Shown: in pieces, positions 45,986 to 53,335 of the stretch
How positions within the stretch are numbered: position 1 is the first letter of the stretch
Layout: every line of letters begins with the position of its first letter
From: Tenrec ecaudatus
Taxonomy: Eukaryota; Chordata; Mammalia; Afrosoricida; Tenrecidae
NCBI RefSeq assembly: GCF_050624435.1
Contig: NW_027459433.1
Coordinates: forward strand, 718,207 to 782,206
DNA length: 64,000 bases
Direction: 5' to 3'
Position numbers and translations under genes: made by a program
The notes under the pieces: model-generated
What the model was told of the DNA's origin: nothing
Databases searched by the model: none
What the model saw: only the letters and a program-made list of their open reading frames with translations

Positions 45986-46051
45986 TGATTGTCGCGCGCC
46001 AGGTCTCGCCAGCAAGAAAAGACGCACCACAACAGGATTCTTCCACAAGCA

Positions 46052-46057
46052 TTTAAT
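46052..46057 (-). terminator. LTR polyadenylation signal ATTAAA
   Basis: The minus strand reads ATTAAA, followed within 10-30 nt by GT-rich sequence (GCTTGTGG and TTGTGGTG). Transcripts through env would be cleaved near 46030-46045, leaving a 3' UTR of roughly 630 nt. Confidence 0.65.
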
Positions 46058-46102
46058 TTTTCATAATGCGGTAAAAGACCCCGAAACCCCAAACTACTGC
46101 TG

Positions 46103-46112
46103 CTTATATATG
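46103..46112 (-). promoter_or_regulatory. LTR TATA box
   Basis: The minus strand reads CATATATAAG. It lies 57-65 bp downstream of the nearer CCAAT box end and about 45 bp upstream of the ATTAAA signal, so transcription would start near 46075-46080 and proceed towards lower coordinates, away from env. R would be short, about 40 nt. Confidence 0.75.
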
Positions 46113-46137
46113 CTCTATGGGGACGTGCTGTGCCCTG

Positions 46138-46173
46138 ATTGGTGCATTTGCCAAAACCTCATGCATTGATTGG
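46138..46173 (-). promoter_or_regulatory. Paired CCAAT boxes (NF-Y type) in U3
   Basis: Two ATTGG cores (CCAAT on the minus strand) lie at 46138-46142 and 46169-46173. They sit in a direct repeat of about 31 bp, each followed on the plus strand by a 'gtgcatttgcca'-like sequence. Spacing close to three helical turns between CCAAT boxes is typical of cooperating NF-Y sites. Binding itself is inferred. Confidence 0.65.
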
Positions 46174-46220
46174 TGAGTTCGCCAGAACCTTCGTTTGCAT
46201 ACTCCAGGGTGGAGTTATGA

Positions 46221-46248
46221 CTACGTCATCTCAGCATCACGCATGCGC
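46221..46248 (-). promoter_or_regulatory. CRE-like and NRF1-like motifs in U3
   Basis: CTACGTCA (46221-46228) is close to a cAMP-response element, and ACGCATGCGC (46239-46248) is close to the NRF1 site. Both are CpG-containing and lie upstream of the CCAAT pair. Confidence 0.4.
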
Positions 46249-46310
46249 TAAGTGGTTGTTTATCACTTAGTTGGACCACCGCCCTGACTGCCCGGCGCCA
46301 TCTAGTAATG

Positions 46311-46385
46311 GCGGCGAGAGCTGCGGCTACCCACATCACGAGAGCTGTGGCTTCCCACATCTCGCGAGAGCTATGGCTTCCCACA
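46311..46385 (-). repeat. Three tandem 24-26 bp repeats at the U3 start
   Basis: The minus strand carries three copies of TGTGGGAAGCCATAGCTCTC with small changes, at 46385-46360, 46359-46336 and 46335-46311. The first copy ends in the palindrome TCTCGCGAGA; the other two carry degraded versions. The first copy also forms the terminal bases of the LTR. The third runs into GCCGCCATTA, a YY1-like core. Such U3 arrays commonly act as enhancers. Confidence 0.8.
46360..46369. promoter_or_regulatory. TCTCGCGAGA palindrome
   Basis: The exact ten-base palindrome sits in the first U3 repeat. In mammals this motif marks many CpG-island promoters and is bound by BANP; Kaiso has also been linked to it. 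Occupancy here is inferred only. Confidence 0.6.
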
Positions 46386-46403
46386 TCTCCTCCTTTCTTT
46401 TTT
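46386..46403 (-). other. Polypurine tract
   Basis: AAAAAAGAAAGGAGGAGA directly abuts the U3 start on the minus strand. This is the expected primer site for plus-strand DNA synthesis and fixes the LTR boundary. Confidence 0.88.
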
Positions 46404-46419
46404 ATTTTAAGCCTAATCG

Positions 46420-46670: not shown

Positions 46671-48461
46671 TTAATTTTCTCTTAACAAAGAAAGCCAAAG
46701 ATCATGGGAACCACCGCGCTCAATCGCTAAGAGCGCCTGCGTGATGATGACTTTGTCACGTTTTTGCTGGGCTTTAAGCTTGCAGAGCAACCATAGCAAC
46801 AACACTCCTCCACAGCACATTATTGCAGCAAATGTAAACACCCCCACCCACTCTTTAAAGTAGGAAAAGGCAGTAGAAAGCCAAGAAGTAAAATCTCCAA
46901 CAGTTATGGGTTTCATTCTTGTGCCATTAAGAGTCGTAATCTGCATCCGGAGTTGTTCTTGAAGTTCTTCCAGCTCAGCTGTCCATTGTCCTGTAAGATA
47001 CTGGGATATATTCTTGCTGCTAAAAGAAGACTCATTCAAGAATTTTAAAGGTGTTATGCACAAATTAGGTGTTGAAGAAACACAACTTAATTGCACCATG
47101 CTCGTAAGAGTATCCACTTGGTGTTGTAATAAATCAACTCTCTGGTTCACTAACAGTAAACCAGACATTAATCGAGCATCCAACATATGGACTGTAGATA
47201 AAGCTTCTGATGTAGATTGTGTAATATTGCTAATGACATTTGCTGTCATTACTTGATTAGACATAGCCAATCCTGCTGTAACCGCTGCTGCAGCTGAGAT
47301 AGTAATAGCTGTAATAATTGCTGCGGTAATGCCAAAATCTCTTTTATATCTATAAAGTGTAGCAATAGGAAAAGTATTGGGATCTGCTTCAACCGGTACA
47401 GGTATCATAGTGGGAATCTTTACTATCAAGGCAAATGCCTCAGAGCCATTCCAACATTCAGTAAGCCAACACTGACTGCTAAATCTATTACATGAAGCTT
47501 CCCAAAATGTATCATTTGCATGACTAAAGTTGAATGTTAACAGAAAGAAAAATGGGGGCTGGACACAAACAGGTGATGGCTGAAATTGCACTCTTGATAT
47601 ATTAACCATAGTATTTACTTTCAGCCTCTTTGTAGTGGTATTGTATACACCAGTGACATTGTATAAAGTATCATTAATTCCAAACATTTTTGCAAAAGGA
47701 GTTACTATCGTAGATGCTCCACGTTGATTATATACCATCCATTCATACCATGGCCAGGTATTATCAGGACCAGTGGTATTAGTATTACTATTCCATTTTG
47801 CTTTACCTAAAGTCGGAGTCATATCAAAACCTGGTATAATAAGGTTGCTCCGATAATTTGGAGACTGACATTGAGTAAAAGTAGGCGGAAAACTTTTTTC
47901 AGGTGAGCAACTAGGTAATATGACACGTCTGGTCACATTAGGTGGCACTACTGATCCATTAATGGGCCCAGAGGGCCTGGATCCTTCACGAATCACCGTA
48001 AGTGTTGTTGTATTTACACGTTTTCCTTTCTCAGAGGTGCCACTTCCACCTGTAGCACCTTGTGCAACTTTCATAAGGGTGGATATAATATTATTAAATG
48101 TAGAGTCTCCAGAAGGATCCACCCAATTGACTAAAGATCCATTTCTTACAGATATACAAGGTGCACTAGTATTGATGGTGGTAAAACACAAACTATATGC
48201 CAATGTAAAATTGCTTGCATTATATACTTTAGGAGGCTCCCCTCTAGGCGTAATACATGGTATTCCCAAATCACATTGCGTTGATAAGAATAAGGGTAAT
48301 ATTGACGCATTCGAGTGTATGGGAATAGGTACAGGCCAAGTTTTAGCTATGGCCCATAAAAAAACTCCTTTAACTATTGGGGTCCATATTACCATCAGTA
48401 TCAGCAACATTATTAGGTTGATCATCGTCTTCTTCATTCTTCCTGCTCGCACGATCTTCAT
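46671..48461 (-). CDS. env: Endogenous retrovirus envelope glycoprotein, complete 596-codon ORF (class II, betaretrovirus-like)
   Basis: This is an uninterrupted Env precursor that would be made in the secretory pathway, cut into surface (SU) and transmembrane (TM) subunits, and mediate receptor binding and membrane fusion. Visible landmarks: a basic leader and hydrophobic signal segment at residues 14-27; SU to residue 374 with about 16 N-X-S/T sites; a furin-type site RYKR at 371-374; an Ala/Ile-rich fusion peptide at about 376-400; a heptad-like coiled-coil region at about 401-455; a C-X7-C disulfide loop at 460-468; four more glycosylation sites in TM; a Trp-rich pre-membrane segment; a membrane span at about 539-560; and a 36-residue tail. 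The C-X7-C loop, and no CX6CC, is the class II arrangement. The first Met is chosen because it is the first AUG after a candidate splice acceptor and overlaps integrase in another frame, as in betaretroviruses; Met9 and Met13 are alternatives. Length suits class II Envs. Function and expression are unknown. Confidence 0.93.
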
Positions 48462-48690
48462 CCTCCTTAATTAATCTCACCAGTCTCTCTGGCACCCAGA
48501 TGGGGTTTTCTTCTTTCTGTGGAAAAACACAAATTGCTCCCCTGGACCTGATTAATATGGGGTCCGGGCCATACCATTTGTTGTCTAGGACATTTTTCCA
48601 TCGGGCCATTTCCTTTGGTGGCTTTGGCCATTGTCCATGTCTGTCTGCAGCTGATTGGCCTTTCTCATCCAGATTTAAAAAAATTTCAGT
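48370..48690 (-). pseudogene. pol: Retroviral pol remnant: integrase C-terminal end
   Basis: The frame reads the end of a betaretroviral integrase. A segment with [12 protein letters not shown] is followed by a basic, Trp-containing DNA-binding domain ([19 protein letters not shown], then WVPERLVRL) and an acidic tail ending at 48370. Its last 92 nt overlap the start of env in a different frame, a normal pol/env arrangement. Everything upstream (catalytic core, RNase H, reverse transcriptase, protease, gag) is missing, because the frame runs into antisense L1 sequence at about 48675-48690. It cannot encode an active enzyme. Open sequence continues a few codons past the likely junction, so the exact edge is uncertain. 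Confidence 0.85.
48516..48533 (-). other. Candidate env 3' splice site
   Basis: The minus strand reads TTTGTGTTTTTCCACAG then AAAGAAG, a strong pyrimidine tract with CAG; the exon would begin at 48516. The env ATG lies 55 nt downstream and is the first ATG after the site, as in a spliced env mRNA. No matching donor is in the remaining provirus. Confidence 0.55.
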
Positions 48691-49065
48691 TTCTCCCTAT
48701 TGAGTAAGATGCTGGCAGTTGGTTTTTCATATATGTCCCTGATTTCATTGAGAATTTCCCTTCGATTCCTATTTTTTAGTATTTGTATCTAGAATGGCTG
48801 TTAGATATTATCAAATACCTTTTCTGAATCAATTGAAATGCTCATGTGGTTGTTTTTCTTTTTTATATGGTAGATCACATTCATTATTTTTCTCATTTCA
48901 AACCATCTTTGCATCCCTGGAACCAATCTCACCTGCTGTGGTTCTTTTGCTTAGCTTTTTGATAGATTGTTGGATTCTGTTGGCCAGGATTTTGAGATTT
49001 TGCCCCTATATTCATAAGGGATATTGGTTTACAGTTTTGTTTTGTTTGAAATATTTATTTCTGTT
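48687..49065 (-). mobile_element. Antisense L1 ORF2 fragment (reverse transcriptase region)
   Basis: The plus strand reads typical antisense L1 ORF2, for example 'gatgctggcagttggttttt' and 'ctttgcatccctggaacc', with stops in all frames. It starts abruptly at the integrase remnant; the rest of ORF2 and the 3' end that should precede it are absent. Confidence 0.75.
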
Positions 49066-49534
49066 GACAAATAAATGAAATTTTGTCTTAAAGCATGGTG
49101 CAGCATGGGTAACAATGTTCACTCACGGTACTCACATGTGGGTGTATCTGCATGTGGGCGGACCCACCTAGAGACAGATAGAGGAGCGGTGTCTTGGTTC
49201 CTAAGAACATTGGTAACACAGAAAAATATGAGAAAAAAGACAAAAAGGATGGTAATAGAAATAAATTAATAAAAATATCTATTAAAGGCTACAAAAGAGA
49301 GACAATGGGAAGAAAACATAAAATTTAAATTTACAAGACATATTTTTGTTTTAAATTCTATACCATTGGCTAAATTAACTACACCATCAATAAAATTGCC
49401 TTATGCCCAAGGGGATGATTGATAATGTTCTCTAACAGAAAATAACAATTATATCTCTGAGGTGAACCAGAGCCAGATGAACCATAAATATGTGAATGGA
49501 TTTTGCACTTGCACTTAATTCTAGCCTCAATCTA
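49066..49534. other. No recognised feature
   Basis: AT-rich, with no assignable repeat or frame. Confidence 0.35.
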
Positions 49535-49765
49535 AGTACAATTAGTTCTTATGAAATGGCCCTATTTGATGCTCGTCCTCATGAAGAAATCACTCAAGAC
49601 ATGAATGCTATAGGAAAGTGTAATGAAGAAACTAGATGGTGCCCACCTATCAGAAAAAAATAGCCTCTGGGGTCTTAAAAGCTGGTCTTAAACAGCCATC
49701 TAAGTGAGGGATCAACTAAGTCCATGTGGAAGAAGCACACCAGCCTGTAAGGTCCTAGGATTTTA
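49535..49765 (+). mobile_element. L1 3' UTR fragment
   Basis: 'aaactagatggtgcccacct', 'ctctggggtcttaaaagctg' and 'tggaagaagcacaccagcct' belong to the L1 3' UTR module. Confidence 0.7.
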
Positions 49766-49979
49766 ACTCATGAAATTCAAATCTGAAGGAGGGAATGATA
49801 TCAGCTTCAATTATGAACACCTGGTTTTAAGGTTGTGGATAACATTTGCAAGCTCTGGGGAATCCTCTCTGACCAGAGCCATGGGGTGTGAACAGCCCTG
49901 TTATCAGACAGATAGCATTGTAAAATTGGTTATTGCAGATGTATTTAAGTTAAAATTTATACATCTCCCTTTTGACTCA

Positions 49980-50880
49980 TTTTAAATATATTCCAGTTCT
50001 TTTAACCTCTGCTTTCTTTTCTAGAGCTTTTTTTAATCTGTTTTCTTTGTTATTGTTGTTAGGCTTTTAAAAATACATTTTTCTGTATATGAAATCCAGG
50101 ATAACTAAATCTATATAGACAATGGTTTGGGGGCTATGGCAGGGGAGGTTGGGGGAAATAACATGAATACAATAAAGAAAAAATGTTCTAAAATTGATTG
50201 TGGTGATAATGATTATTACAATTTATCTTAATATAATTGAGCTATTGTATGGCATGTGAGTCATATGCCAATAAAAGTGTTTTTGTAAATGAATTAAAAC
50301 AATTTTTCCAAGCTGTTCTCAGCCTGCTAATTGTTTCTGTCTTGGAAATTTCAACGACAATATGTTCCAGTGTTTTCTTTTGGGATCTGTGGTGTTTTGG
50401 GTTCTCTCTGCTTCCTGGAGAATTATTTTCTCCTCCTCTGTTCTGTTAAGGAAGTATTATTCCGGAATTTCTTATATGGATAGAATCCCACTTCATTCTT
50501 ATGTTTTCTTCAGATTCTTTTGTTCTTTTAGCTGATTGTATCACTCATAAATTGGAGTTAAGAGATATGCCTTCAAACTCACCAATTCAGCTTTCCATTT
50601 CTTCAATTCTCTTACTCTGTTCTTCTAAATTGTTGCCTAATTCTCTTATCTTAATATTTTCTGCATTTCTTTTTAGAGGTTTTTGTTGAAGATATCTAGC
50701 TTTTCTATTCTGACCATTGTTCTCGCAGACTCTTTGTTGAAAGTACATGACAACATTTTTCTGAATTCAATTTATGATAGTTTCAGAGCCTGTTCTTTTT
50801 AAGAAAATTCCTTGAGATCTGAGTGTTGTTCATTTGTTAATCCTTCTTCTGATGAATCAGGAGTGACTGCTGCCACTGCA
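49980..50880 (-). mobile_element. Probable old L1 ORF1/5' region, antisense
   Basis: AT-rich antisense sequence such as 'ccatttcttcaattctctta' and 'gttgcctaattctcttatct' looks like the coiled-coil part of an L1 ORF1. Family unresolved. Confidence 0.4.
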
Positions 50881-51544
50881 GCATCGTGGCCGGGTATTAC
50901 GCTTGGGAGGGCTGCTAGATTTTGTGGGAGTCGATGACTTTGTTGAGTAGTGCCAGAAATGAATAATAGAAGAGGGACGGGGGAGGGAAAAAAGGCTTTG
51001 GGCAGTAAAAGGCTGTACTAAGAAAAGTTGGGAGGGGGAGGAACACTGTACTTGAGTGTATTCTTCCCTAAGGCCTAGAGCTTCTTAACATAGTCCGTCA
51101 AAGCACAGGCAATCTTCAGGAAAACCATCATGGTGCCAAGTTTGTCCTTGGGATAGCCTAGGCTGGTCCTTTGGGACCTATGCTCCGGGAACTGTGCAGG
51201 CCAGCTTGCTTGGAGAGCTGGAAGCCACATGGGACCTGCGTGCTTATTACACGTGAAGCTTTGGACCCTGCTCACAATGATAGTCTTTGAGGAGTGGAGC
51301 TGGGTTGCTGTAGCCAGCAGTGCAGAATGGAGCTACAGATGGGTAGCAGGAGACCACTGGGCGCCTCTTCAGTGGACCTGCTCTTTCCTTCCCTTCTCTG
51401 CTTGCTCCCACAGTCTCTGATATATGGAAGCCTCCTTTTACTTCACTTTCAAGCCATTGTCTGAGATCACAGGCCACCTGTCTTTTCTTAGGGCCTAGTC
51501 TATCCTGGTTGTTACATAAGGATCTACCTGTGTGTATGTGTTCA
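50881..51544. other. Unassigned
   Basis: GC-richer than its flanks. It could be an L1 5' UTR continuing from the left, but no landmark is decisive. Confidence 0.3.
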
Positions 51545-53335
51545 GTTGGACATGTTCTAGTCCCCTTTCTTTAATGTTTTTAAAAGTTTCTATAGAACTG
51601 GTGTCAGCACTTCTGAATTTTTTATGAAATATCCCAGTGAAGCCATCTTGCCATTGACTTTTCTTTTTATATATATTTTTGGTCTTTTTTGAAGGGGTGG
51701 AGCAGGGGGTTAATCACATTCTGAATTGCTTATTTCATAATTACTCTGCTTAAACCTATTTCTATTCATATTAGTTTAGGTATGTCGTATATTTTCAGGA
51801 ATTTGTCCCATTCATCTGCACTTTCAAATCTGTTGCAGTTCTTTTTCATAGTGTTATGATTCTTTATTCAATGAATATGTTGTGTTGTCTCCAGATTCAT
51901 TTCTTTTGATTATTTGCCCTCCCCCCCCCCCACCCCCCCAGTATATCCAGTAGTTTGTTTCAGTGATTCTTTTCAAAGAACCAACTTCTGGTTTGATTGA
52001 TTTTTTTCTGTTGTTTAACTGTATTCTATTTCATTTCTTTCTCACTGGTATTTATTATTCATTTCAGCTAGTATCTTTGGCCTCTTGCTCTTCCTTTCCT
52101 TTTTGTTCAAGTTTTCATTTAAACAATTGATTTTCATCCATCTTTTTAAATATGGGCATGTATTGCTATGAATTTCCCTCTGAGAATGGTTTGCGCTGTG
52201 TCATAAAGGATTTGGTATGTTGTGCTTTCCTTTATATTTGATACCAAGTATATTTTTATTTCACTTTTAATTTCTTACATAGAGAAATTGTTTTCTAGTC
52301 GTACAATATTTAATTTTGGTATAATAATAATTATTCATTTTTATTCTTCCTGTGATTGATTTCTTACTTCATACCATTATGGTCAGAAAGTATGCTTTGT
52401 ATGATTTTAATGTTTTAAAACTTGAGATTTGTGGCATAATCTGTAGTTGGTTCTGGAAAAATTATCCTGTGAAAATGTCTGCTGATGATGGATGGAGTGT
52501 TCTAAGTTAAATTGGCTTATGATTTTCTTTATGTTCTTAATGTCCTTATTGATTCACTTTTTAAATGTTCTGTCGAGAACTGAAATTGAAGGTTTCAAAA
52601 CTACAAATATTAATAGCGGCACTGTAATTTTTTTCTTTGATATTAGTGTTTGTGTCATGTTTTTGGACAGGTTAGGTGAATATATGCTAATAATTGTTGT
52701 ATCTTCTTGAAGTATTAGCCCTTTTATTATGTAATAGCCTTTATCAGTATGACCACACTCCTTTTTTTGGGTGCTGGTTGCACGGAACATTTTTTCCATC
52801 CTTTATTTTCAGTCAGTTTGTGTCCTAATGTGAATGTGTGTTTTGTGTAGGTAACAAAAGATGAATCATGTTTTTTATCCAGTCTATCACTCTGCCTTTT
52901 GTGTAAATATTTTGGCTATTTACATTTTCTTCATTCTTTTAGCTAATTGGGTTTTGAGTTTCTTTTATCTGGTTTCTCTTTTTATCAATTTTCCTGTTAT
53001 TTTTTGTATTTAGCATCTTTTGTTATGAGCTTTAATTCCTCTTTACATATTCTCTTAGTGGTTACTACAAATATTATACTATACAACATGCAATTACAGT
53101 AACATTTAGCATGCAATCAACAATGAATGTGAAATATTAAGTATTCCTGGTTTACTGTTCCCTCTCCTTTTTCTGTTGGTGAACCTCCAGTGACAGTAAT
53201 GTACACCCTACATCCAGTAGTCGTAATATGTACTTATTTTCTGAGATCTCTGTCTGACTCCTTCCTCCCCCTTTGTGTACATTTGAGTGTTTGATTAATG
53301 TTCTTTCCTTTCCATTTAGAAAACTTCCTTAAGTA
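51545..53335 (-). mobile_element. Old L1 ORF2 (N-terminal half), antisense
   Basis: 'gtgaagccatcttgccattg', 'caaagaaccaacttctggtt', 'catttctttctcactgg' and 'cataccattatggtcagaaa' are successive antisense ORF2 landmarks. The frame is destroyed. A poly-C run sits at 51921-51940. Confidence 0.8.

Follow-up and report, generated by a model that had tools for sequence, protein, structure and literature searches.

The window, by which we mean the whole 64,000-nucleotide stretch of DNA analysed here, carries an open retroviral env frame on its minus strand, at exactly the coordinates that a first-pass annotation had given; none of its 596 codons is an internal stop, and so many open codons would be expected by chance, given the local base composition, with a probability of about 5e-18. 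The features at and around this frame are as follows:

45990..46385, minus strand: 3' LTR (396 bp, TG...CA); TATA-like and ATTAAA signals by inspection
46386..46412, minus strand: purine-rich stretch ahead of the LTR, a putative polypurine tract
46671..48461, minus strand: env open reading frame, 596 codons plus stop, encoding a HERV-K-like (betaretroviral-type) Env
47058..47084, minus strand: C-X7-C loop of TM, residues 460-468
47340..47351, minus strand: furin-type cleavage site RYKR, residues 371-374, followed by a fusion-peptide-like hydrophobic stretch (DFGITAA...)
48373..48696, minus strand: open frame with an integrase C-terminal DNA-binding domain (PF00552, E 2.8e-18)
48659..48696, minus strand: junction 38-mer, where L1-like DNA meets the provirus remnant; 157 genome places
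48700..52900, minus strand: ruined L1-like sequence (labelled L1 by inspection), longest minus-strand frame 107 codons

The envelope landmarks listed in the first-pass annotation were all recovered: the RYKR site with its DFGITAA stretch, the C-X7-C loop, N-X-S/T sites (exactly 20) and, by inspection, a hydrophobic span at residues ~540-562. The N-terminus is signal-peptide-like, again by inspection, and the motif RDFG-TA is nearly or fully invariant in an alignment of 16 sequences. Judged from its sequence, a translated product, if there is one, would be a class I fusion glycoprotein led by a signal peptide, cleaved by furin and anchored in the membrane. At 48517, 56 bases ahead of the env ATG, a splice-acceptor-like stretch comes to an end; it may serve as the env acceptor.

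The description of the provirus as broken was also accurate; what was seen of it comprises the integrase end, env, the purine-rich stretch and one LTR, and no second copy of the LTR was found within the window. The integrase frame overlaps the start of env by 89 bases and has its stop inside env, in a different frame, and its first codons fall on the L1 side of the junction. The L1-like sequence is as ruined as had been claimed, with 73-97 stops in each minus-strand frame across 48700-52900. The contrast between an open env and ruined neighbours had been read as a hint of capture; a simpler cause would be a provirus younger than the L1 that it adjoins. Host genes that might drive amplification were sought with Pfam, which gave no match in 10 of the 34 stop-to-stop frames of at least 110 amino acids in the window, and the window yielded no tRNAs (with a bacterial-code tool) and no Rfam matches.

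When used as a phmmer query, the window Env matched the TM of HERV-K (E 6e-8), and a profile of 16 sequences (the window Env and 15 relatives) matched HERV-K TM at E 4e-16 and HIV gp41 at E 1e-3; Pfam returned GP41, Fusion_gly and EIAV_GP90, all three under their cut-offs. The AlphaFold2 model was weak (mean pLDDT 52, better at residues 241-310) and was used for fold ranking only; the top four Foldseek matches in the PDB were all HERV-K SU/spike chains (E 9e-7 to 5e-5), and the next match had an E of 0.013. The Env of HERV-K (HML-2) (PDB 9nnd, 9mla, 9sya) is thus like the window Env in TM sequence alignment and in SU/spike fold ranking, and its loop cysteines are equally spaced in the phmmer alignment, whereas the fold alignments, made with this weak model, reached 11-12% identity and TM-scores of 0.21-0.39. 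A C-X7-C loop and an env that overlaps the end of pol in another frame are typical of class II ERVs. Both are present here together with SU/TM homology of HERV-K type, and on these sequence features the window Env is classed as HERV-K (HML-2)-like, of the class II betaretroviral type.

The protein search returned 18 relatives; those that are named and full length are env proteins of rodents, at 36-42% identity. These proteins (from Arvicanthis, Callospermophilus, Marmota, Ictidomys, Cricetulus and Phodopus) are 576-583 amino acids long and cover 90-99% of the window protein; those that were aligned have the RDFGITAA start of TM in common with it, but they belong to other hosts and carry no functional annotation. 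Within the same genome, a diverged locus at C139:106.09 Mb codes for a 38% identical Env, and no relative was found among viral contigs. A database protein of Manis pentadactyla named 'Olfactory Receptor 2G6' is fused to related env sequence; the gene model is probably wrong.

The assembly from which the window comes (3.92 Gb in 2140 contigs) was then searched for copies of the locus. The best 73 of 1434 candidates in a protein search were all full length and 99-100% identical, 71 of them stop-free and two with one TGA; this set is biased, since similarity and intactness both raise the score. The junction 38-mer was located at its 157 places with at most one mismatch, an exact 44-mer of the TM loop, carried by all 53 copies whose env was read, at 167 places, and an exact 34-mer from the L1 side at 189, from which it follows that some blocks may be without the provirus or have a changed junction. 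A captured Env would be expected at few places, and many near-identical copies had been named in the first-pass annotation as an observation that would speak against capture; on both points the number of junction places speaks against capture. Four further junction-bearing copies have frames of 565-567 codons instead of 599.

Copies taken with about 4 kb on each side all aligned to the window (20 of 20) over 9.2-9.9 kb at 99.57-99.97% identity. Both flanks are common to these 20 copies at such identity, and the locus was therefore multiplied by segmental duplication and not by retroviral spread. Neighbouring copies are repeatedly ~158-159 kb apart, a period that is clearest in an array on C133 (24.0-27.6 Mb) and is seen on C22 as well, alongside other spacings. 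Long contigs (C22, 304.6 Mb; C40, 221 Mb; C62, 175 Mb; C133) carry copies, as do many short scaffolds, which makes some assembly redundancy possible. A 46-mer at positions 500-545 of the window, 46 kb away from env, was matched at 512 places with at most one mismatch, which indicates that the block with env is part of a larger family of duplicated DNA. Clusters of env were also noticed on C119 (68-103 Mb) and C152 (4-16 Mb), where exact matches to the loop number 11 and 19, respectively, the latter within 12 Mb; our guess is that these could be sex-linked or low-recombination regions.

The parent ERV family extends beyond these blocks. A 39-mer of the LTR was found at 707 places with at most two mismatches; among the first 100 of these there were 13 neighbouring pairs, on one strand and within 12 kb, and 12 of the 13 were spaced 5445-5524 bp apart. 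Gag_p24 was detected between the LTRs of two of the 13 pairs (C1:16032775-16038298 and C41:64241211-64246656), in open frames of 481 and 364 codons; the best 150 of 2976 candidates were scored in this search, and absence at the other pairs means nothing. The copy at C1:16.03 Mb has ~1.5 kb between p24 and env, a spacing from which most of pro-pol must be missing. Dispersed members may therefore represent an ERV with gag and env but with pol deleted, for whose spread polymerase was provided in trans. Reinfection or retrotransposition is the likely origin of the dispersed relatives. A search with a piece of the relative on C119 gave, among the best 96 of 1302, 10 near-identical C119 copies including the query and 20 copies that carry one TGA and have a frame of 452 codons. 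Open env frames of 599 codons were present at C40:40.0 Mb and C102:125.1 Mb, where the exact L1 flank probe is absent; these are probably separate insertions, judging by that absence, although they could be duplicates with a changed flank probe. Open env frames are hence not special to the window locus. Pairs of env copies separated by exactly 5482 bp occur on C1327, C1507 and C1515, a distance that tandem proviruses with an LTR in common would produce.

In order to compare variation in env with neutral expectation, env was read from 53 of the best 73 copies (that of the window, and sets of 20, 20 and 12), a sample that leans towards similar and intact copies. These comprised 25 nucleotide haplotypes and 21 proteins, with a stop at codon 5 in two of the 53. 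Relative to the window copy there were 26 nonsynonymous variants, 14 synonymous and one nonsense; the neutral expectation at kappa 2 is 70.7%, 25.2% and 4.1%, respectively. The resulting dN/dS was 0.58-0.71 for kappa 1-3 (p 0.10-0.29). RYKR had become RYKI in nine of the 53 copies, with loss of the furin site, and Cys102 was lost in two. Among the 21 aligned copies, variable columns made up 10 of 1791 in env versus 60 of 7339 elsewhere (odds ratio 0.68, p 0.29).

Two relatives lie elsewhere in the genome, one on C1 and one on C119. Their env sequences are 96.4% and 95.4% identical, respectively, and in each the frame is shifted by a one-base gap. When changes were assigned by parsimony, the nonsynonymous to synonymous counts were 11:6 on the amplified lineage (17 changes, fixed in the 53 copies), 22:16 on the C1 relative and 24:30 on the C119 relative, and the dN/dS point estimates were 0.57-0.70, 0.43-0.53 and 0.25-0.31, respectively. 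The amplified lineage is thus the least constrained of the three by point estimate, although it does not differ significantly from the other two pooled (Fisher p 0.30). Taken together, the lineage and 53-copy tests gave dN/dS of 0.57-0.71 with p of 0.10-0.59, on small numbers and with low power. On the dN/dS criterion of the first-pass annotation, the ratio is below 1, but it is not distinguishable from 1 either on the lineage or among the copies. Env variation among the copies is not distinguishable from neutral, and weak constraint on env is possible, the point estimates being below 1. Without selection, the expected probability of an intact frame is 0.34, given 17 changes, the share of nonsense changes and the rate of gaps in the C1 and C119 relatives; an open frame needs no selection at this value.

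With substitution rates of 1.5-4e-9 per site per year, the greatest flank divergence among the 21 aligned copies (0.39%) would correspond to ~0.5-1.3 My, and gene conversion would make this figure too young. The 17 lineage changes would correspond to ~2.4-6.3 My; since some of them may be viral evolution, this is a maximum for the age of the insertion.

We consider it very likely that the window holds the 3' remnant of a young class II HERV-K-like ERV which was multiplied by segmental duplication, and whose env is open through youth and not through maintenance by the host. A young provirus would have come to adjoin an old L1 and to lose its 5' part, leaving the integrase end, env and the 3' LTR. 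The surrounding block would then have been multiplied by segmental duplication, partly in tandem arrays of ~159 kb period, to at least 157 junction-bearing copies, and recent insertion and amplification would account for the open frame, with Env probably serving no host function. The first-pass annotation had left a choice among a syncytin, a restriction-type envelope and a young ERV, and it is the last that the many near-identical copies, and a dN/dS not distinguishable from 1, favour.

Its headline, a possible captured envelope, is not supported. A captured Env of syncytin or restriction type, under selection and with the copies as later by-products or as a selected amplification of dosage, would fit the intact landmarks, the openness of nearly all of the best-scoring copies and the point estimates of dN/dS below 1. 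We regard it as unlikely, given that nonsynonymous and synonymous changes are not distinguishable from neutral, that nine of the copies read have lost the furin site, that env is as variable as its flanks, that intactness is expected about one time in three without selection, and that other loci are open too. As the main reading, a captured syncytin was rejected on copy number and the near-neutral ratio of changes. It is quite unlikely, too, that part of the reason for the block's amplification was that additional Env, or some other block product, was useful or selfishly favoured; some of the more than 70 open copies would then be transcribed and act through dosage, for example by blocking a receptor or as fusogens.

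The many short scaffolds, and pairs of scaffolds with equal spacing (C30/C1453, 262 kb; C29/C31, 486 kb), are what one would see if the copies were mainly an assembly artefact, with one or a few loci present as uncollapsed haplotypes or repeated contigs; this is highly improbable in view of the copies on long contigs (C22, C40, C62) and in the C133 array, the 25 distinct env haplotypes and the clustering of SNP groups in the flanks. Reinfection or retrotransposition of a provirus carrying env is barely credible as the source of the copies even though a dispersed family with paired LTRs exists, since new integrations would not share the one L1 junction of the junction-bearing copies or the flanks common to the 20, and for the copies read with flanks it was rejected on these grounds.

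It follows that a single window can make a young, mass-duplicated ERV env resemble a captured gene, and a simple test is offered by a common junction, neutral-like variation and broken sister copies. The window lies within a very high-copy family of large duplicated blocks, as the 512 places of the 46-mer and the C133 array attest, and since env is open in 71 of the 73 best-scoring copies, its expression would be of interest. Among the titles listed from open-licence literature, none concerned this locus or its parent ERV family.

Cornelis and colleagues reportedly described in 2014 a tenrec syncytin, syncytin-Ten1, that is conserved and placentally expressed. It is like the window Env in being a retroviral Env with an open frame; the window locus differs in occupying more than 150 places and in lacking detected selection, and its copy number argues against identity with syncytin-Ten1. 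None of the 18 Env relatives is a tenrec-named protein, a set in which not all are named and whose database may lack syncytin-Ten1. The entry in a review table gives syncytin-Ten1 as fusogenic and from Tenrecidae. Resemblance among SINEs may point to an afrotherian host for the window.

The nearest precedent is HERV-K (HML-2) K222/K111 of human pericentromeres. According to PMC4425911, K222 is a 5'-truncated HERV-K (HML-2), without 5' LTR and gag, that was copied over the pericentromeres of nine human chromosomes. K222/K111 and the window locus are alike in being HERV-K-type proviruses that were spread by copying of the surrounding DNA, and K222, like the window locus, has lost its 5' part; the window locus differs in host and retrovirus, in an env open in 51 of the 53 copies read, in a flank of L1-like DNA instead of centromeric repeats, and in a truncation further 3', inside integrase. 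As with K222, one truncated provirus with common flanks was found at many places (157 junctions; 20 copies read with flanks). The window locus is a further striking case, after human K111/K222, of a HERV-K-like provirus multiplied by duplication of host DNA.
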